Positions 7,200 to 33,702 of a stretch of DNA of 64,000 nt are shown piece by piece. The notes under the pieces are model-generated. The model ran no database searches. It worked only from the letters and a program-made list of their open reading frames with translations, and was not told where the DNA came from. Numbering within the stretch: the stretch's first letter is position 1; every line of letters begins with the position of its first letter. The DNA is from Dyadobacter sp. 50-39 (lineage in GTDB: Bacteria > Bacteroidota > Bacteroidia > Cytophagales > Spirosomataceae), in assembly GCA_001898145.1 (NCBI GenBank), contig MKSR01000048.1, positions 124,001-188,000 on the forward strand. The letters are read 5' to 3'. Made by a program: the position numbers and the translations under genes.

Positions 7200-9431
7200 T
7201 TACTGGATCGACAGCTCGTCCAGCGTGTAAGCCTTGTCGCGGGAGACGGTCTGTTCCCGGATTGCTTTCACATCAGCCGGTCGAACGGGCGGAGAATTGG
7301 TGAACTCATACCGCACATAGCTGAGCACCGAGGCAATCCATTCGTCGTCGTTATCCTTCATCGAAGGCATTTCCGAAGGATAGCTGTTGCCCTCTATCGG
7401 ACCCGACAAGCCGTGCAGCAGGATCCGCACCGACGCCTGGGTGTTGTTCCGGTTCAATCTTCGCGAGCCTGCCAACGGAGGCGCAGTTTTGCTCATCAGG
7501 CCTTTTCCATCGGCACCGTGGCAGGTAGCGCACAACGATTTGTAGATCACCGACCCATTCATGACCAATGCCCTGTCCGGCGCGTCGAGCCGGCCCAGTT
7601 TCATCCCGAATCTTTTGGCATCCTCATTCTTCTCCACGCTCCGCTGCGCCCGTGCCAGTACTTCCGCGCCATTTGCATTCTTCACAATTTCGCCAGCCAG
7701 GGCTTTCGCTTTGGGCGAATCGCTATATGCCAGGGAGAATATCAGCTGCATGCGCACATCGGCTACGGGATCGGACTTCAATGCCGCCAGTGTTTCGACC
7801 ATGGCGTCGTTCTTTTTCAAATAAGGCTCCGTCATACGGACGGCAGCTTTCCGGATTTCGAAATCACTGTCTTTGAGCGCACGGGCAATGCTGTTCTGAT
7901 CCAGTGCATTCAACCCTTCGAGCGTCCACAATGCATGCAGGCGAGCCAGTGCCGACGGCGATTTGATTGCTTCATTACCCTCACCCGCCGCGATCGCTTT
8001 CAGCAGCGGCACTACCGACTGGTCATTTCGTACGACGAGCTCTTTCTGAGCATTGTCCCGCCACCAGCCATTGGGATGGCCGAGGTAACCGACCAGCTTT
8101 TTCGAAGTTTCGTCGAGCATTCTAGGTTTAGGGCCGGGCGTCATGCCATCGTGCACCAGGCGATAAATGCGGCCATGCTGGATGTTTTTATCCAAACCCA
8201 AACGCTTGATCTGCGGGCGCAGATAGCTTTTAGGCCCCGTCCAGTTGCCTTCCTGGATAATACCGCGGTTCATATCTACAATGTACAGACAACCATCCGG
8301 CCCGGTGTACATATTCACCGCACGGAAGTTCATGTCCGTGGAAGCGATGAATTCTTCTTTCTGATAGGCGTTTTCCAGCGTGATCTTACCATTCTTGTTG
8401 GTCACTTTCGCTCGCCGGATGAGCCTTCCTACCGGCTCGCTGATGAGCAAATCGCCTTGCAGATCTGCCGGAAGCTTATCGCCGCGAAATATCACCTGGC
8501 CACAGCTTGCAGTGAAATGGTTCAGCGTGGTATCGGGACGCAGGCGTTTCAAACCACCTTCCACATCCGGCGTTTTGATAATCGGCCACACCTCGTTGAA
8601 CTCTTCCTTGTACTGGTCCGCAAACTCCATCCGGCCGTACACGGGGTTAATCTGGAAGCCCAGCGCAGGCGTTTCACCCCCGGCAGAAGAGAAGTACAAC
8701 CGGCCATAGTCGTCATGGGTCAGTCCCCATTGCCCGCTAGACCCGCTGGGAATCGAGTCAGGTTTTAAAATACCATTGGCATACCTGAAACGCACGGCGT
8801 CAACGGCCATGTAAATCCAGTTATCGACGTTCCAGTCCAGACCGCTGCGCTGGTGTTCGAGGTTGCCCGGCGCTTTTTTGTCCGGTGTGTAAACCGGCCT
8901 TTTCTCGTCGGCCACGCCATCCTTGTTGTTATCCTTGTAGCCGTAAACATTGTAGGTATCCGTCTCATTCACAAGCAATTCATTCCCTACGCACAGCAGC
9001 ATCCTCGGCAGAAGCATTTTGTCGATAAACACCGAGCTTTTGTCCATTTTGCCATCATTATCGGTGTCTTCCAGCAACATAACCCGGCTGGTGGGCGCGT
9101 GCTCGTCCGTACCTTCCACGTCCTGCATGTAGGTATTGAGCTCGGCCACATACATCCTTGCATTGCCATCCCAGGCAATCGCAACCGGTTCGTGGATCAT
9201 CGGCTCGCTGGCCACCAGTTCGAGGTGATAGCCTTTGGGCAATTTGAAGGTTTTAATGCTCTGCTCGGGCGTGAGATGCGCCGGAGAAGGGTTGTCGGTG
9301 AATGCAGGAATGGCGCTCACCGACTCGTCGGTGGTACGCAGCATATCGCTTTTGGAGCCGCTCTGGCGCGATACCTGGCAGGTAACCAGGGTCGCAGCCA
9401 GCATTCCGGCAATCCATATTTTCTTGTTCAT
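7200..9431 (-). CDS. PVC-type membrane-bound dehydrogenase lipoprotein with HEAT repeats and cytochrome c
   Basis: A 743-residue lipoprotein (hydrophobic start, Cys at about residue 19 in LVTCQ). Residues about 45-420 form the PVC-type dehydrogenase N-terminal propeller, recognisable by ELVASEPMIHEPVAIAWD, the calcium-like loop DTDNDGKMDKS and GPDGCLYIVDMNRG. A helical HEAT-like region follows (about 450-610). The C-terminal cytochrome c domain has Cys634-Ala-Thr-Cys637-His638. Such proteins resemble L-sorbosone and soluble glucose dehydrogenases and are thought to oxidise sugars in the periplasm. It is located between the PQQ dehydrogenase and GH95 genes on the same strand, with gaps of 20 and 27 bp, which supports joint transcription. 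Confidence 0.85.
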   Translation of the reverse strand: MNKKIWIAGMLAATLVTCQVSRQSGSKSDMLRTTDESVSAIPAFTDNPSPAHLTPEQSIKTFKLPKGYHLELVASEPMIHEPVAIAWDGNARMYVAELNTYMQDVEGTDEHAPTSRVMLLEDTDNDGKMDKSSVFIDKMLLPRMLLCVGNELLVNETDTYNVYGYKDNNKDGVADEKRPVYTPDKKAPGNLEHQRSGLDWNVDNWIYMAVDAVRFRYANGILKPDSIPSGSSGQWGLTHDDYGRLYFSSAGGETPALGFQINPVYGRMEFADQYKEEFNEVWPIIKTPDVEGGLKRLRPDTTLNHFTASCGQVIFRGDKLPADLQGDLLISEPVGRLIRRAKVTNKNGKITLENAYQKEEFIASTDMNFRAVNMYTGPDGCLYIVDMNRGIIQEGNWTGPKSYLRPQIKRLGLDKNIQHGRIYRLVHDGMTPGPKPRMLDETSKKLVGYLGHPNGWWRDNAQKELVVRNDQSVVPLLKAIAAGEGNEAIKSPSALARLHALWTLEGLNALDQNSIARALKDSDFEIRKAAVRMTEPYLKKNDAMVETLAALKSDPVADVRMQLIFSLAYSDSPKAKALAGEIVKNANGAEVLARAQRSVEKNEDAKRFGMKLGRLDAPDRALVMNGSVIYKSLCATCHGADGKGLMSKTAPPLAGSRRLNRNNTQASVRILLHGLSGPIEGNSYPSEMPSMKDNDDEWIASVLSYVRYEFTNSPPVRPADVKAIREQTVSRDKAYTLDELSIQ

Positions 9432-28101: not shown

Positions 28102-30288
28102 TCAGATGCTGTACTTCAAACTAACCAGCATATTCCTGCCGGCACCGGGCGAAAACTGGTTCGCGTAAATGGCATTGGCATAGTAGCGCACGTTGAAAAC
28201 ATTGCTAATGTTCCATCGGATCCCCACGCGGCCAATCCGGTAGCCTATTGCCAGGTCGGCAATGGTGTAGGCCGGCATCACATACGTGTTGGCGCTGTTG
28301 GTAAATGTTTCATCCATGTAATTGACGCCCGCGCCAACGCTGGCACCTTTCAACTCGCCGCCCTGCGCCTCGTAGTTCAGCCAGACATTCGCCATATGCT
28401 GCGGCGCAAATGCCACCTGTTTTCCAGCCACCGGATTGGCTTCATTCGTTTTGTATGCCAGGTACTGAGCTTTCGAAAAAGTATAACCCGCATTCACGTC
28501 GAGGCCGGGCGCCAATGATCCGTTGATTTCCGCCTCAAACCCTTTCGATTCAGCGGAGCCGATGCGCTTGTAAATGCCCCCCGGCAATGCTTCGAGCTGA
28601 TTGTTTTTACGCATATAATATAATGAAACCTGAGCACCCCATTTCGGATTTACGTCCAGCCGAGAACCTACTTCACCCTGGTAGCCCGTTTCCGGATCGA
28701 ACGTTTCGCCGTTCGGAGCAACACGGCGGGCGGGTTTGAAATAGGTGGAATACGAGCCATAGACCGAAAGTGCCTCAAACGGCTGATACACCAGTCCCGC
28801 CCGGTAGGTAAATGCAGATTTGTTGATCTTAGCCTCCGGCCCTTCTTCGGTCACATTCCGTTCGGCATCGACCTGATCGGTAAAATAAGTACCGCGAAAA
28901 ATATCATAGCGCAACCCCACCAGGCCTTTCAGCTTTTCACTGATTTTAATCCAATCCTGCACATAAATACCATGCACATGCTCCATGGTAGCGCGGTAAT
29001 AGGTATCCCTGAATGCAATATAACCCTGGTTGAGAACCGGGTTGCGTACGGCAATAGTGGCATTCCAGCCTGGCCCGAAAACGTCGCCGTTATACGTTCT
29101 GCGGTCGAGCAGGCTAAGCGAGTAACCTCCCAGCAGTTTATGGGAAATACCCTTGGTGTCAAACTCATAGGTCAGTTCCAGCTGGTTCTGCAATGGTTTG
29201 GTAAGATGGTTGAAATAGAACGGCGACGATCGTCTGAGTGAATCCCGGGTAGCGTTAAAAGTCAGCTCCTCGGTCGAGAAGTAATTGATATTGTCGTCGT
29301 AATAGGAAAGCTGGTCCGACAGCGTCAGGCCGGATGAGAACCGGTGCACATATTTGAGCTGGTAATCGTACCGCGTATGTTTCAGGAAATCAGCGGGATC
29401 GTTGTAACGCGTATCGCGGTCCATGCCCGGCGCCAGCTTACTGCCATCGAGCATCGGCAGCCCGGTATCGGTGTCATAGATATCCTTGTTCGCACCGATT
29501 GTCAGGTAAAACAGGTCGCGTTGCGTAGGGGTGTACTCCAATGCGAGGTAGCCGTTGTTGGTATTCGAGCCCGAATGCCGGTAACCGTCCGTATCCGACA
29601 TGCCGAAATCGAAGCGGTACCGCAGCTTGTCGTTCACCGGCCCGCCTGCCCCTGCACGGATGCGGCGGGTGTTGTAGGTGCCATAAGCGGCCGAAAAATC
29701 GGCCTTGAAATCCGCAGAAGGCCTTTTACGGGCAATGTTGATCACCCCGCCCAGAGCCGAGTGCCCGAAAAGAACGGATGCCGGCCCTTTCAGGACTTCG
29801 ACGCGCTCCACATGCGCGAGATTGGTGCTGGGAGCGCTGGTAGAGATGTTGTGCCGCTCATCGCGAACGCCGTCGACCATCAGTACAAAATTGGAAAAAC
29901 CGCGGATGGTGAAATGCTGAAAACCGCCGTAGGTATTGTTGGCGCGCACCCCGGTGGTATTTTTCATAGCCTCCTGCAAATCGTCGATCCCGCGCTGCTC
30001 GATCGTCCGTACCGATACGGCCGAGGTCGTCAGCGGCAGGTCCCGCAATCCCACATCGATTTTGTTGATGGCTGAAAATGCAGCCCGGTGTGCGCCCGAA
30101 ACCTTTACTTCCTCCAAATGATGGGTTCGCGCCACGTCTGCACGTGAGGTGCTGTCGGGCGCATTTACAGGGGCGGTTTGTGCCAACGCACTACTGAAAG
30201 GAGTTACCAGTACCGCTGCCAGCAGGGCACATAGAGAGGCCTCCCCGAGTCTGCCATACCGCGGGCAGCGGGTCGTAAAACTGAACAT
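28102..30288 (-). CDS. TonB-dependent siderophore-type receptor
   Basis: A 728-residue outer membrane receptor. The signal ends near ALAQ (residue 37), a linker carries LEEVKVSGAHR, and the plug (about 65-185) shows the siderophore-receptor pattern NTTGVRANNTYGGFQHFTIRGFSNF, LMVDGVRDERH and VERVEVLKGPASVLFG. The 22-strand barrel ends in SPGAGRNMLVSLKYSI with the typical C-terminal aromatic-hydrophobic strand. It resembles the FhuA/FhuE class by sequence. However, its mRNA leader is a cobalamin riboswitch, so the cargo could be a corrinoid or a metal complex linked to B12 status. It is transcribed alone, with a terminator 180 bp downstream. Confidence 0.9.
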   Translation of the reverse strand: MFSFTTRCPRYGRLGEASLCALLAAVLVTPFSSALAQTAPVNAPDSTSRADVARTHHLEEVKVSGAHRAAFSAINKIDVGLRDLPLTTSAVSVRTIEQRGIDDLQEAMKNTTGVRANNTYGGFQHFTIRGFSNFVLMVDGVRDERHNISTSAPSTNLAHVERVEVLKGPASVLFGHSALGGVINIARKRPSADFKADFSAAYGTYNTRRIRAGAGGPVNDKLRYRFDFGMSDTDGYRHSGSNTNNGYLALEYTPTQRDLFYLTIGANKDIYDTDTGLPMLDGSKLAPGMDRDTRYNDPADFLKHTRYDYQLKYVHRFSSGLTLSDQLSYYDDNINYFSTEELTFNATRDSLRRSSPFYFNHLTKPLQNQLELTYEFDTKGISHKLLGGYSLSLLDRRTYNGDVFGPGWNATIAVRNPVLNQGYIAFRDTYYRATMEHVHGIYVQDWIKISEKLKGLVGLRYDIFRGTYFTDQVDAERNVTEEGPEAKINKSAFTYRAGLVYQPFEALSVYGSYSTYFKPARRVAPNGETFDPETGYQGEVGSRLDVNPKWGAQVSLYYMRKNNQLEALPGGIYKRIGSAESKGFEAEINGSLAPGLDVNAGYTFSKAQYLAYKTNEANPVAGKQVAFAPQHMANVWLNYEAQGGELKGASVGAGVNYMDETFTNSANTYVMPAYTIADLAIGYRIGRVGIRWNISNVFNVRYYANAIYANQFSPGAGRNMLVSLKYSI

Positions 30289-30320
30289 ACTTTTAACCGT
30301 TTAAGGTGAGTGATGGTCTT

Positions 30321-30569
30321 GGAAAAGGCAGGTCTCCTGACTTGTAACATTTACGCCGTCCTTCCCGGTAATGAGTGAATGAGTCAATGAGCGAATGAGT
30401 GAATGTCCTTTTGTATTGAAAACATTCACTCATTCACACATTCTCACATTCACTCATTGAATTCCAGTGGACATAACCCCGGCATAAACCGCTCGTTACT
30501 TACAGTTGCGCGACAGTTCGTGATTCACACACGATTCCCTATTAATTCACTCAACGTGAAACCTTTTCC
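30321..30569 (-). promoter_or_regulatory. Cobalamin (AdoCbl) riboswitch with an enlarged variable arm
   Basis: On the minus strand, the P1 arms GGAAAAGG (30569-30562) and CCTTTTCC (30328-30321) pair. Between them are the conserved core elements AATAGGGAA (about 30544-30536), GCGCAACTGTAA, GTCCACTGG, GGGAAGGACGGCG and the 3' box AAGTCAGGAGACCTGCC. This layout is the class I cobalamin riboswitch. It precedes the receptor gene at 28102-30288 by 32 bp, so B12 most likely represses the receptor by closing its translation start. The segment between the CACTG and GGAAGG boxes contains an inserted 89-bp hairpin repeat (30370-30458). Confidence 0.9.
30370..30458. repeat. GAATGAGT hairpin repeat inside the riboswitch
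   Basis: Two 36-nt arms (30370-30405 and 30423-30458) are complementary at 31 of 36 positions around a 17-nt loop. Each arm is built from imperfect copies of the 8-mer GAATGAGT (plus strand) or ACTCATTC. The element sits exactly in the variable arm of the cobalamin riboswitch. Two related elements are at 45211-45304 and 58334-58510. Confidence 0.85.
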
Positions 30570-30673
30570 TGTTAGAAAATAAATTAAAGAACTTCTTGGG
30601 GGCGCAAAGTTATGATTTAATGATAGTTTGCGGCATTGAAACGAAAAGATTAAACAATTCAAAAAACTGCTGT

Positions 30674-31018
30674 ATGGAAAGAAAGGTAGAGATCCGGCTC
30701 CGGCATTGGGTGTTTGTGGACGAGGTCAAATTTTTCGGCCCGGGACGCTATGAACTGCTCGAACGAATCGCTGAAACCGGGTCTATCTCGCAGGCTGCGA
30801 AGGAGATGGGGTTGTCGTACAAAAAAGCATGGGCGATGGTCGATGCGATGAACACATTGGGTAAAGGCCCCTACGTGGTCACCCAAAAAGGGGGTACCAA
30901 AGGCGGAGGCACAGTGCTCACCGACACCGCACGCAATGTGATGGCCGCCTATAAACGCCTCAACGACAAGCTGAACGCCGCACTCGCCGAAGAACCGGAG
31001 CTTTTATCACTCATTTGA
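30674..31018 (+). CDS. ModE-like winged helix regulator (DNA-binding domain only)
   Basis: A 114-residue regulator started at ATG 30674 (MERKVEIRLRHWVF); a longer frame from 30596 has an unlikely leader that runs into the riboswitch promoter area. It matches the N-terminal domain of ModE: FFGPGRYELLERIAETGSI, the helix-turn-helix SQAAKEMGLSYKKAWAMVDAMN, and the wing TQKGGTKGGGTVLTDTA. The C-terminal molybdate-binding (TOBE/Mop) domains of E. coli ModE are absent, so how it would sense the oxyanion is unclear. The adjacent receptor gene carries a ModE-like palindrome at its promoter, which supports local regulation. Confidence 0.85.
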   Translation: MERKVEIRLRHWVFVDEVKFFGPGRYELLERIAETGSISQAAKEMGLSYKKAWAMVDAMNTLGKGPYVVTQKGGTKGGGTVLTDTARNVMAAYKRLNDKLNAALAEEPELLSLI

Positions 31019-31060
31019 CGCAACTCGTCAAACTTTTCAGCACTATTGGCAGGTACTCTT

Positions 31061-31093
31061 TATATTTGCGATATATCCATTCATACATATCGC
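31061..31093 (+). promoter_or_regulatory. Promoter element overlapped by a ModE-like operator
   Basis: TATATTTG (31061-31068) fits the Bacteroidetes -7 consensus TAnnTTTG; no clear -33 element was seen. Immediately after it lies the palindrome CGATAT-N12-ATATCG (31069-31092, extended by G/C to 31068-31093). E. coli ModE operators, as remembered, have the form CGTTAT-N12-ATAACG with the same inner AT...AC bases. A regulator bound here would cover the transcription start, so repression is expected. The receptor ATG is at 31100. Confidence 0.65.
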
Positions 31094-31099
31094 TTTTTG

Positions 31100-33073
31100 A
31101 TGAGAAAATATCTCCTGCCGTTATTCAGTAACCTTGCCTTCACGGCGATCGCACAGCAAACCCCTTCGCTCACCGACCGCACTTTTGAGCTTGGCGAGGT
31201 ACGCGTGTCGGGGGTCAGCACCAGCGACAGCATTGCCTCCCGCCTCTCCTACCACACTATTGAAAAGTTCAACCGTAACGACCTTTCCAATGCATTGAAT
31301 ATCCTTCCCGGCGTGAGCATCGCCAACGTGGGGCCGCGGAATGAGTCGGTCGTGTATGTACGCGGCTTCGACCTGCGCCAGGTGCCCGTGTACATCGACG
31401 GCGTGCCCGTATACGTGCCTTATGACGGTTACGTGGATATGGGCCGCTTCACCACTTTCGATCTGGCCGAGGTAAACGTGTCCAAAGGTTTCGCCTCCAT
31501 TTTGTACGGTGCCAACACCATGGGCGGGGCGATCAATCTGGTATCGCGGAAGCCGGAGGGCAAGTTGGAGGTCAATGGCCGCGCAGGCGTTTTCAGCGGC
31601 GGTGGTTACCGCTGGAATGTGAATGCAGGATCGAGGCTGGGTAAATTCTTTTATCAGGTCGGTGCTTCGCAGCTCAAACAGGACACGTATCCGCTTTCCG
31701 GTGATTTTAAACCCAGAAAATACCAGCAAACCGATGACCGGGAAAATGCCTACCGGGACGATTTGAAATTCAGTGCAAAAGCCGGCTTTACGCCCAATGC
31801 GACCGACGAATATGTGATCGGTTATATCAACCAGCAAGGTGAAAAAGGTACGCCGCCTTACGTGGGCGACGACGCTAAAATCACTACCCGTTTCTGGAAA
31901 TGGCCGAAATGGAACAAGCAGAGCCTGTATTTCATTTCAAATACCGCGGTGGGCGAGAAAAGCAAAGTAAAAACGCGGCTGTATTACGATACTTTCGTGA
32001 ATGCGCTGTTCAGTTACGACGATACGACTTACACCGCCCAAACCAAGGGTTATGCATTCCAAAGCTTTTACGACGACTACACGCTCGGCGGCAATGCGGA
32101 ATTCGAATCGCGGGCGTGGGACAATAATGTGTTCAAACTCAATGTGCAATACAAGCGCGACATTCACCGCGAGCACGACAAAGGCGAACCCGTGCAGTCC
32201 TACATCGACAATACCATTTCAGTTGGCATCGAAAACAGGTACCAGATTACCTCTGCGCTTGCCGTTGTGCCAGGCATCAGTTTCAATACGCGCAACGCAA
32301 GCAAGGCACAGGAATACAATGCGACTACCAAAGAACTGACCGATTTTGCCGATAGTAAAAACAATGCGGTCAATGCGCAGATCGGACTGTTTTGGGACAT
32401 CACCGCCCACCATACATTGCGTGGTACCGTAGCCCGGAAAACCCGTTTCGCAACCATCAAGGACCGCTACTCCTACCGTATGGGCCAGGCCATTCCCAAC
32501 CCCGACCTGCACGCCGAAGCAGCATTGAACTACGACCTCAGCTACTCGGGCAAAGTCGCCGAAAGGCTCGCATTACAAGCCAGTGTTTTCCAAAGCAATA
32601 TCGACGACATTATCCAGCAAGTGGACAATGTGCAACCCAATCGTTTCCAGTTACAGAATGCCGGAAAGGCCCGTTTTTATGGCGCGGAAGCTGGTTTTGA
32701 TTACCAGGTTATCCAAGGCCTGAAACTCGGGTCGAACTATTCGTTTATCAAACGGAAAAACAAAACCAACCCGGCCATCCTCTTTACCAATGTGCCGGAA
32801 CACAAGGTATTCGCCTATGCCGACTTCTCGTTCCTGAAAGTAGCCAACCTGCTCACCAGCGTGGAAAGCAACAGCAGCCGGTACAGCACGAGCTACGGCA
32901 CCAAAGCCGGCGCGTATACGCTGGTGAATGTCAAAGCTTCCGTGAAGCTGTATAAATTCATCTCCGCAGAAGCAGGTATCAACAACATTTTCGACAAGAA
33001 TTACAGTCTCGTGGAAGGCTTCCCCGAAGCGGGCAGAAATTTCTTCGTAAACCTGGTTTTCAACCATTTTTAA
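31100..33073 (+). CDS. TonB-dependent receptor, candidate molybdate/tungstate-related
   Basis: A 657-residue outer membrane receptor started at ATG 31100 (MRKYLLPLFSN), which gives a clean signal peptide ending near AIAQQ. The plug (about 35-150) shows NALNILPGVSIANVGPRNESVVYVRGF (as motif parts), PVYIDGVPVYVPYDG and VNVSKGFASILYGANTMGGAIN. The barrel ends in GRNFFVNLVFNHF. It lacks an N-terminal signalling (STN) or carboxypeptidase-like domain. It lies 81 bp after the ModE-like gene, has a ModE-like operator at its promoter, and is followed by a molybdopterin-fold protein, so uptake of molybdenum or tungsten complexes is a reasonable but unproven role. Confidence 0.88.
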   Translation: MRKYLLPLFSNLAFTAIAQQTPSLTDRTFELGEVRVSGVSTSDSIASRLSYHTIEKFNRNDLSNALNILPGVSIANVGPRNESVVYVRGFDLRQVPVYIDGVPVYVPYDGYVDMGRFTTFDLAEVNVSKGFASILYGANTMGGAINLVSRKPEGKLEVNGRAGVFSGGGYRWNVNAGSRLGKFFYQVGASQLKQDTYPLSGDFKPRKYQQTDDRENAYRDDLKFSAKAGFTPNATDEYVIGYINQQGEKGTPPYVGDDAKITTRFWKWPKWNKQSLYFISNTAVGEKSKVKTRLYYDTFVNALFSYDDTTYTAQTKGYAFQSFYDDYTLGGNAEFESRAWDNNVFKLNVQYKRDIHREHDKGEPVQSYIDNTISVGIENRYQITSALAVVPGISFNTRNASKAQEYNATTKELTDFADSKNNAVNAQIGLFWDITAHHTLRGTVARKTRFATIKDRYSYRMGQAIPNPDLHAEAALNYDLSYSGKVAERLALQASVFQSNIDDIIQQVDNVQPNRFQLQNAGKARFYGAEAGFDYQVIQGLKLGSNYSFIKRKNKTNPAILFTNVPEHKVFAYADFSFLKVANLLTSVESNSSRYSTSYGTKAGAYTLVNVKASVKLYKFISAEAGINNIFDKNYSLVEGFPEAGRNFFVNLVFNHF

Positions 33074-33189
33074 AGCGATGTCGGGAAGCGGTTGGCACAT
33101 TATCGCATTCCCCGGTATGCTCACCGACTCGACATTTATTACCAATCCCGCGTTTTCAAACCCGCATTCCATTTCAAAATCCCGATAAC

Positions 33190-33702
33190 ATGCAAGGAAT
33201 CAATTCATTCAGAAGCAAAATGCTATTATGCGCGATGCTCGTGTGCGCACTCGTGATGCAAGTCCATGCGCAAAGCGCGGCCACGCTGACCGTCTCCGGT
33301 GAAGTGACTACTCCCCTGGAACTGAAAGCGCAAGACCTGGCCGCGATGAAGCAGATCAGCCACAAGGTGAAAGACCGCGATGGTAAAGAGCACGAGTTCA
33401 AAGGCGTCGCGCTGATTGAAATCCTCGAAAAGGCAGGCGTGACCACCGGTGCGAAACTGCGAGGCGAAAACCTCGCTAAATATGCATTGATCACCGCCGC
33501 GGACGGCTATGAAGTACTCTATGCACTCGCGGAAATCGATCCGGAATTTACAGATCAGGTGATATTGCTTGCGACAGAAAAAGACGGACAGCCATTACCG
33601 GCCGGCGAAGGGCCGTTCCGCATTATTACGCCCAAAGACAAGAAACCTGCCCGCTGGATCCGTGAGGTCAGAAGCATTAAGATCGCATTTGCCAAAAACT
33701 GA
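33190..33702 (+). CDS. Secreted molybdopterin-oxidoreductase-fold protein lacking the Mo-ligand cysteine
   Basis: A 170-residue secreted protein (signal ends near VHAQ, residue 28). The mature part resembles a reduced sulfite-oxidase-type molybdopterin-binding fold: LTVSGEVTTPLELKAQDLAAM, then VALIEILEKAGV, AADGYEVLYALAEID and a C-terminal GPFRIITPKDKKPARWIREV. The only cysteines are in the signal peptide, so the Cys that coordinates molybdenum in the true enzymes is missing. It may bind a ligand rather than catalyse. It follows the ModE-regulated receptor gene with a 116-bp gap and precedes a bidirectional terminator. Confidence 0.8.
   Translation: MQGINSFRSKMLLCAMLVCALVMQVHAQSAATLTVSGEVTTPLELKAQDLAAMKQISHKVKDRDGKEHEFKGVALIEILEKAGVTTGAKLRGENLAKYALITAADGYEVLYALAEIDPEFTDQVILLATEKDGQPLPAGEGPFRIITPKDKKPARWIREVRSIKIAFAKN

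Follow-up and report, generated by a model that had tools for sequence, protein, structure and literature searches.

Organization of the Locus

The window analyzed here is a stretch of 64,000 nucleotides from Dyadobacter sp. 50-39 (contig MKSR01000048.1, positions 124,001 to 188,000), part of a 7.7 Mb genome (G000 in our survey) whose nearest named relatives are Dyadobacter. On its + strand lie, in this order, a gene for a ModE-like regulator consisting of a helix-turn-helix (HTH) domain only, a palindrome, a gene for a TonB-dependent receptor and a gene for a small PF00174 protein. The three genes, together with a CGATAT-N12-ATATCG palindrome at the receptor promoter, had been singled out in an original prediction as a candidate outer-membrane uptake system for molybdenum (Mo) or tungsten (W), and all were found as stated. 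The comparisons described below indicate that the receptor almost certainly belongs to a ModE-family regulon and that the system probably serves Mo/W-related uptake, likely as a repressible, TonB-dependent means of Mo/W acquisition.

The regulator gene (30674..31018, + strand) encodes 114 residues. Its mechanical open reading frame (ORF; 30596-31018) opens with TTG, the homology starts at ATG 30674, and the ModE-like protein of D. beijingensis DSM 21582, a strain that also has the operator, the receptor and the PF00174 gene, shows 89% identity, aligned over residues 1-114. The protein passed the Pfam HTH_1 cut-off (28.1 vs 26.6 bits), and a profile of its family (31 homologues) matched PDB entries 2ijl (7.1e-30) and 1b9m, the E. 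coli ModE (5.2e-23). Against TIGR00637 (ModE_repress) it scored 89.5 bits, the cut-off being 98.5. Judged by these profiles, it is an HTH-only ModE-like protein and not a full ModE.

The receptor gene (31100..33073, + strand; 657 aa) likely starts at ATG 31100 (the mechanical ORF runs from TTG 31046) and encodes a predicted importer of a Mo/W ligand, with a Plug domain (PF07715, 75.4 bits) and a TonB_dep_Rec barrel (PF00593, 104.4 bits), both over cut-off. Its relatives are 90, 82, 50 and 52% identical to it, and the nearest solved sequence found with a receptor-family profile was BtuB (3e-18, plug region only). The third gene (33190..33702, + strand) encodes a small, PruR-like protein of the SUOX fold (PF00174, 43.7 bits) with a presumed signal peptide.

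A ModE-Type Operator at the Receptor Promoter

The palindrome spans 26 bp (31068..31093) and reads GCGATAT-N12-ATATCGC, with CGATAT at 31069-31074, ATATCG at 31087-31092 and an outer G:C pair at 31068/31093. The ModE-family gene lies upstream of it, and 6 bases separate its end from the receptor ATG. It is adjoined by TATATTTG (31061..31068, + strand), a -7-like promoter element of the Bacteroidota type; no good -33 box was seen by eye at this promoter. When five Dyadobacter promoters were aligned (those of the window, D. beijingensis, strain LHD-138, G073 and G139), all carried TATATTTG or TATCTTTG as the -7-like element, and the TTTGCGATAT block and the ATACATATCG arm were kept while the middle of the spacer varied, as expected of a dimeric binding site. 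The operator overlaps or adjoins the promoter and start region, a placement that would fit repression. Its proposed likeness to the known ModE operator was also borne out, in that the outer layout agrees with the E. coli consensus, ATCGNTATATA-N6-TATATANCGAT, as given in the excerpted text of PMC545781.

In the host genome, the bare 10-base pattern gave 5 matches vs 4 for a reversed control; three of the five were inside mechanical ORFs and two stood directly before receptor genes. In five congeners (G073, G139, G184, G127 and G159), the counts were 7, 5, 7, 2 and 8, vs 4, 9, 4, 3 and 1 for the reversed pattern. The matches inspected in these congeners were, respectively, 1/7, 2/5, 1/7, 0/2 and 1/8, and the one inspected in G159, a genome lacking ModE, was a longer perfect inverted repeat within a mechanical ORF (L257). 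Since there is no genome-wide enrichment of the palindrome, the argument rests on its position and conservation. A matrix built from 44 sites outside the genus, all chosen beforehand as matches at 9 or 10 of the 10 bases, scored 25.6 bits at the palindrome and 6.5 bits at the next-best place in the window; in 20 shuffled windows (mononucleotide shuffles, forward strand only) its peaks ranged from 3.6 to 20.0 bits.

Genes and Operators Close to ModE

Among the 194 genomes of the order, 39 were found to have ModE-like genes. We surveyed the neighbors at 40 loci, namely 39 of the 41 ModE places plus the window (a G142 copy with internal stops was left out). Half of these loci (20/40) had a receptor beside ModE, belonging to the TB1 family (850-900 aa) in 16 cases and to TB8, the family of the window, in 4; TB1 contributed 17 cluster members in its 16 loci, one gene being in two pieces, and the TB8 member of G073 is a remnant. 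The two families align with each other over part of the plug only. PF00174 genes occurred in 9 of the 40 loci and ModA-type (SBP_bac_11) genes in 5. The gene orders included ModE-PF00174-ModA-TOBE-ModB (L050), ModE followed by ModA and a ModBC fusion (L078), ModE-MOT1 (L079), and ModE-PF00174-receptor followed either by ThiF and MoaA genes (L055, L057 and L059) or by the end of the contig (L063).

A second set, of 80 named loci, was found from the ModE alignment and comprises the best 80 of 593 confirmed; it shares some genomes with the first set. Among these 80, the regulator family of the window adjoins molybdate genes in many loci, standing with modABC in many Pseudomonadota. One Cyclobacteriaceae genome (L091) and three Variovorax (L118, L147 and L148) combine PF00174 with modABC, and receptors were present in Dyadobacter, Hymenobacter, Spirosoma, Arsenicibacter, Chitinophaga, Flavihumibacter and Ferruginibacter. 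Genes were called modB or modC by phmmer similarity to the L050 genes, themselves named by their order and their likeness to the L078 fusion (ABC_tran, BPD_transp_1).

For genes within 7 kb of ModE, the region from -250 to +100 of the called start was scored for the pattern CGNTAT-N12-ATANCG, which has 10 fixed bases; receptors of at least 150 bits and transporter and PF00174 matches of at least 35 bits were kept. Duplicates were recognized by the C-terminal 60 residues of ModE, and leaving them out reduced the TBDR1 set from 29 to 27 and the ModA set from 28 to 24. At 33 distinct receptor loci, the motif heads the receptor itself in 28 and its operon in the other 5. A match of at least 9/10 was seen for all six TB8 receptors (one a remnant) and for 22 of the 27 TB1 receptors, and each of the five TB1 misses (L055, L057, L059, L063 and L103) follows a PF00174 gene with a 10-of-10 site. 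Patterns with shifted spacers (10, 11, 13 or 14) or swapped arms were found at none of the 33 receptors; the reversed pattern reached 9 in three, all TB8, the case in the window being due to the operator, read with a shift of one base.

At the same threshold, the motif preceded MOT1 (2/2), PF00174 genes (12/19), modA (11/24) and a modBC fusion (1/3), more sparsely moaA (3/20), thiF (1/14) and the promoter of ModE itself (5/113), and none of the modB (0/19), modC (0/21) and mobA (0/15) genes.

The Operator Far from ModE

The strongest test comes from genes unlinked to ModE, since nearness to it played no part in their selection. The host genome itself contains a second receptor headed by the pattern. 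This gene, of the TB1 family, lies far from the window (L183, 8733-11270, contig C47), and its site (8695-8718) ends 14 bases before the ATG. The two receptors are the only operator-headed genes found in the host, that of the window having the PF00174 gene behind it.

In genomes with ModE, 10 of 11 unlinked TB1 or TB8 receptors, from 7 genera, carry the operator (in G004 it sits 354 bases before the matched part of the receptor), and neither of the two receptors of the same clade from ModE-less genomes does (G100 and G156, at 6 and 7 of 10). Twenty receptors outside the clade, all from ModE-bearing genomes, had no operator (0/20; best score 8/10 over 1.4-1.5 kb). Of these 20, 19 were chosen by similarity rank, and seven are in the tree described below. 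With relatedness ignored, Fisher tests gave 2.5e-7 against the 20 outsiders and 0.038 against the two ModE-less cases. The scan covered 34 loci, the rest being ModE-linked loci or more distant receptors (L212 and L213, scoring 6 and 7). Receptors at L203, L206, L207 and L210 score 7 because the operator sits before the PF00174 gene in front of them. L202, on a contig that begins 656 bases ahead of the match, is the L077 locus of the ModE-linked set.

In a tree of 38 TB1-type receptors, all 23 operator-headed members fall within one group of 26 (support 94/95). The other three members are the ModE-less G100 and G156, the latter on a long branch, and G045:C6. The operator label changes 4 times on this tree, vs 12.1 times for shuffled labels. 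The ModE-less G072 is placed outside the operator clade, alongside G024:C55 and G040:C5, both of which belong to the 20 outsiders; by similarity to the query, G072 scores 902 bits and the other two 877-880 bits (51% identity). Counting G072 as well would give 0/3 ModE-less receptors with the operator (Fisher 0.011), and counting G024:C55 and G040:C5 as family would give 10/13 for the unlinked receptors.

The PF00174 genes behave similarly. The operator precedes them in 14 of 17 genomes with ModE and in none of 8 in which ModE was not detected, one of the latter being only 75% complete (Fisher 1.5e-4, relatedness ignored). Of the three misses, one is a fragment (G073); in the other two, the window and G089, the gene sits behind a receptor that has the operator. 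In G139, whose ModE is on another contig, the TB8 receptor and the PF00174 gene, separated by 27 kb, are both headed by operators; an operator also heads the PF00174 gene of G184, which shares a contig with ModE at a distance of about 976 kb. A lack of conservation upstream of orthologous receptors had been named beforehand as an outcome that would overturn the prediction; the palindrome is conserved there, also far from ModE.

G073 (L043, 8150-8666, - strand; L285) retains degraded remnants of both genes, namely residues 1-140 of the receptor, split over two frames, and residues 100-169 of the PF00174 protein, with the ModE frame open and the operator kept. It looks as if the set decays together.

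Link to Molybdenum Metabolism

The Mo/W theme, too, stood up, since the same regulator family and motif are found on modA, modABC and MOT1-type genes in relatives, and ModE adjoins modA or modABC, MOT1 and molybdenum cofactor (Moco) genes there. Far from ModE, the operator heads PF00174-modABC operons (L173 and L180) and the start of modA (L174); the PF00174-modABC operon of G114, where no ModE was found, lacks it. At L057 a 10-of-10 site is also present before moaA, and at L060 a 9-of-10 site lies 270 bases before a 2Fe-2S gene, which is followed by a gene for a MoCoBD enzyme. This L060 site (12832) and another operator-like 9-of-10 site, at L065 (13823), stand before genes of one cluster. 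The switch may thus extend to a molybdoenzyme in some genomes. As for the host, it encodes ModA (197.9 bits), MoaA (341.2 bits) and five MoCoBD_1 matches, and hence probably needs Mo.

The Small PF00174 Protein

The original prediction of a secreted protein with a molybdopterin-type fold was right as to the PF00174/SUOX fold and the presumed signal peptide; the protein does not look like a Moco enzyme and most resembles the Cys-less PruR. Its only two cysteines (residues 14 and 19) sit in the presumed signal peptide, leaving the mature part Cys-less, and no conserved Cys column that could ligate Mo was found across 21 homologues. Molybdoenzyme activity was rejected for this reason. The AlphaFold2 model (pLDDT 89.7) matched best the PruR structures 7kom (5.1e-8) and 7kos (1.1e-7), from Vibrio vulnificus and Agrobacterium, followed by sulfite dehydrogenases. 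The excerpted text of PMC13259868 describes PruR as secreted, of ~170 aa and with the SUOX fold; it lacks the Mo-ligating Cys, binds reduced pterins and is probably unable to hold Moco. The protein of the window shares the fold, the length, the missing Cys and secretion (judged by the N-terminus alone); unlike PruR, proteins of its type are linked to Mo uptake genes. Its neighbors in the window are the receptor and an opposite-strand gene of the Phosphodiest family (no search was aimed at DcpA/DTB). One Variovorax homologue, compared with PDB sequences, gave no match.

PF00174 genes also occur in modABC operons without an adjacent receptor (L050, L091 and L181), and we therefore take the protein to be a general periplasmic factor for Mo uptake or sensing. 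Conversely, five receptor-bearing genomes have no PF00174 protein (G152, G012, G128, G074 and G030). Within Dyadobacter, the four genomes with ModE all have the protein (in one case as a fragment), and it was not found in the two without ModE. Across the 194 genomes, ModE was found in 17 of 25 with PF00174 vs 22 of 169 without, a co-occurrence to be read with the origin of the search profile, mostly ModE-linked loci, in mind. In G064, one of the genomes without a detected ModE, moaA is directly followed by a weaker PF00174 homologue (G064:C13:183603-185093), an arrangement that would tie the family to Mo metabolism.

Proposed Mechanism and Alternatives

We propose that, when Mo or W is plentiful, the HTH-only ModE-like protein would bind to the palindrome at the receptor promoter and keep the receptor and the small protein off; upon depletion, it would be released. 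The TonB-dependent receptor would then draw a Mo/W-bearing ligand into the periplasm, an oxyanion or, more likely, a chelate, with the PruR-like protein possibly acting there as a carrier, to which the ligand might be handed over, or as a sensor. ModABC, encoded elsewhere and outside the switch, would finally move the metal over the inner membrane for Moco enzymes. To settle on a chelate or a pterin as the form of the ligand is speculative, and we would do so only very tentatively. Equally doubtful is a broader scenario of Mo/W piracy in Bacteroidota, in which at least two families of TonB-dependent receptors would take pterin-bound or chelated Mo/W, the PruR-like protein would receive it, and the HTH-only ModE repressor would sense a Moco-related small molecule instead of molybdate.

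A number of observations weigh against Mo/W acquisition under a ModE-like switch. No molybdate-binding half (Mop/TOBE) was detected in the regulator by Pfam/NCBIfam scan, nor any TOBE domain in the host genome at E 1e-3 (as a control, TOBE was found in 12 of 14 genomes), and together these results leave Mo sensing unexplained. Neither receptor family reached any of the NCBIfam cut-offs listed, and the AlphaFold model of the receptor (pLDDT 30.6) was unusable. No operator was found at the modABC genes of the host and five congeners, nor at the five modABC loci of genus g19 and that of G024; in Variovorax, the ModA and PF00174 genes reached only 6-8/10, as did the ModA genes of Comamonas. The one unlinked receptor that missed the operator in a genome with ModE (G045:C6) scored 8/10, and only two ModE-less genomes have a receptor within the clade. 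Moreover, related genomes are not independent samples, and the Fisher values ignore kinship.

A TOBE-protein partner for the regulator was considered and dropped, as none was found in the host, although the modABC operon of L050 has one.

Other explanations were weighed as well. The regulon could be real and the receptor's ligand organic, linked to Mo metabolism as a pterin or a breakdown product of Moco would be, with the PruR-like protein as its periplasmic binder. Such a ligand would agree with the fold of the small protein, closest to pterin-binding PruR, with its missing Mo-ligating Cys and with a regulator devoid of a molybdate-binding domain; we nevertheless find it improbable, in view of the PF00174 genes in receptor-free modABC operons and their absence from some receptor genomes, which tie the protein to Mo uptake generally and not to the receptor, and of the likely inability of PruR to hold Moco (as stated in the excerpts of PMC13259868). 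More improbable still, in our opinion, is the import of a siderophore or another ligand unrelated to Mo, under a ModE-like regulator rewired in Bacteroidota. The best NCBIfam scores of the receptors were indeed to siderophore, haem and B12 receptor models, all under cut-off, and one may add that the regulator has an HTH domain only and that the switch does not extend to the host modABC; against this, the same regulator and operator occur on modA, PF00174-modABC and MOT1 in other Bacteroidota, and the operator is common to two receptor families. Finally, an accident of neighborhood, with a common receptor beside a ModE gene and a chance palindrome, would agree with the lack of a genome-wide excess (5 vs 4 reversed) and is practically discounted by a palindrome that is conserved, that at unlinked loci depends on the presence of ModE and that keeps its arms while the spacer varies in the five Dyadobacter promoters.

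Comparison with Known Systems

Acquisition of Mo or W under a ModE-like switch, as proposed here, resembles the E. coli ModE regulon, in which modABC is repressed, in the HTH fold of the regulator and the outer operator layout (CGNTAT-N12-ATANCG). It differs in that the host modABC is unmarked and that the regulator, which lacks molybdate-binding domains, has outer-membrane receptors and a PruR-like protein as its targets. HTH-only ModE proteins with a single DNA-binding domain are known from Desulfovibrio (PMC545781) and from PDB 2ijl; the Desulfovibrio site differs, being CGGTCACG-N14-CGTGACCG, and the excerpts of PMC545781 describe no receptor as a target. The excerpts of PMC5343134 contain nothing on ModE. 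By sequence, the receptor shares the plug and barrel of BtuB, ZnuD, CntO and other metal or B12 receptors; unlike them, it is predicted to serve Mo/W under a ModE-type switch.

Our literature search, with most subscription journals outside its coverage, found no TonB-dependent receptor for molybdate or tungstate. Molybdate is generally assumed to pass the outer membrane via porins. The earlier remark that no dedicated receptor had been characterized is upheld for TonB-dependent ones and has to be qualified for outer-membrane routes at large: in P. aeruginosa, ModA and IcmP are reported to provide an outer-membrane step for molybdate through a secreted ModA and a type VI system, with no TonB-dependent receptor mentioned in the excerpted text of PMC11734730.

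Our results point to an active outer-membrane intake of Mo or W by a route undescribed so far. If this is true, Mo/W would be one more metal with active outer-membrane uptake, the operator could serve as a marker for locating such receptors in environmental genomes, and a role would be suggested for the family of small Cys-less SUOX-fold proteins. It also raises the question of how an HTH-only ModE senses the metal when the genome shows no TOBE domain.

A Neighboring Riboswitch

On the - strand of the window, a cobalamin riboswitch (RF00174, 88.2 bits; 30310-30581) precedes a divergent TonB-dependent receptor (28102-30288). The latter, whose best-scoring model is one for siderophore receptors (TIGR01783, 280.4 bits), is probably B12- or cobalt-related. 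Together, the two look like a system separate from the ModE-like locus. Inspection by eye of the riboswitch span revealed, at 30370-30460, imperfect GAATGAGT-like repeats opposite their complement with a short loop between, suggesting that they may form a long extra stem of the riboswitch.

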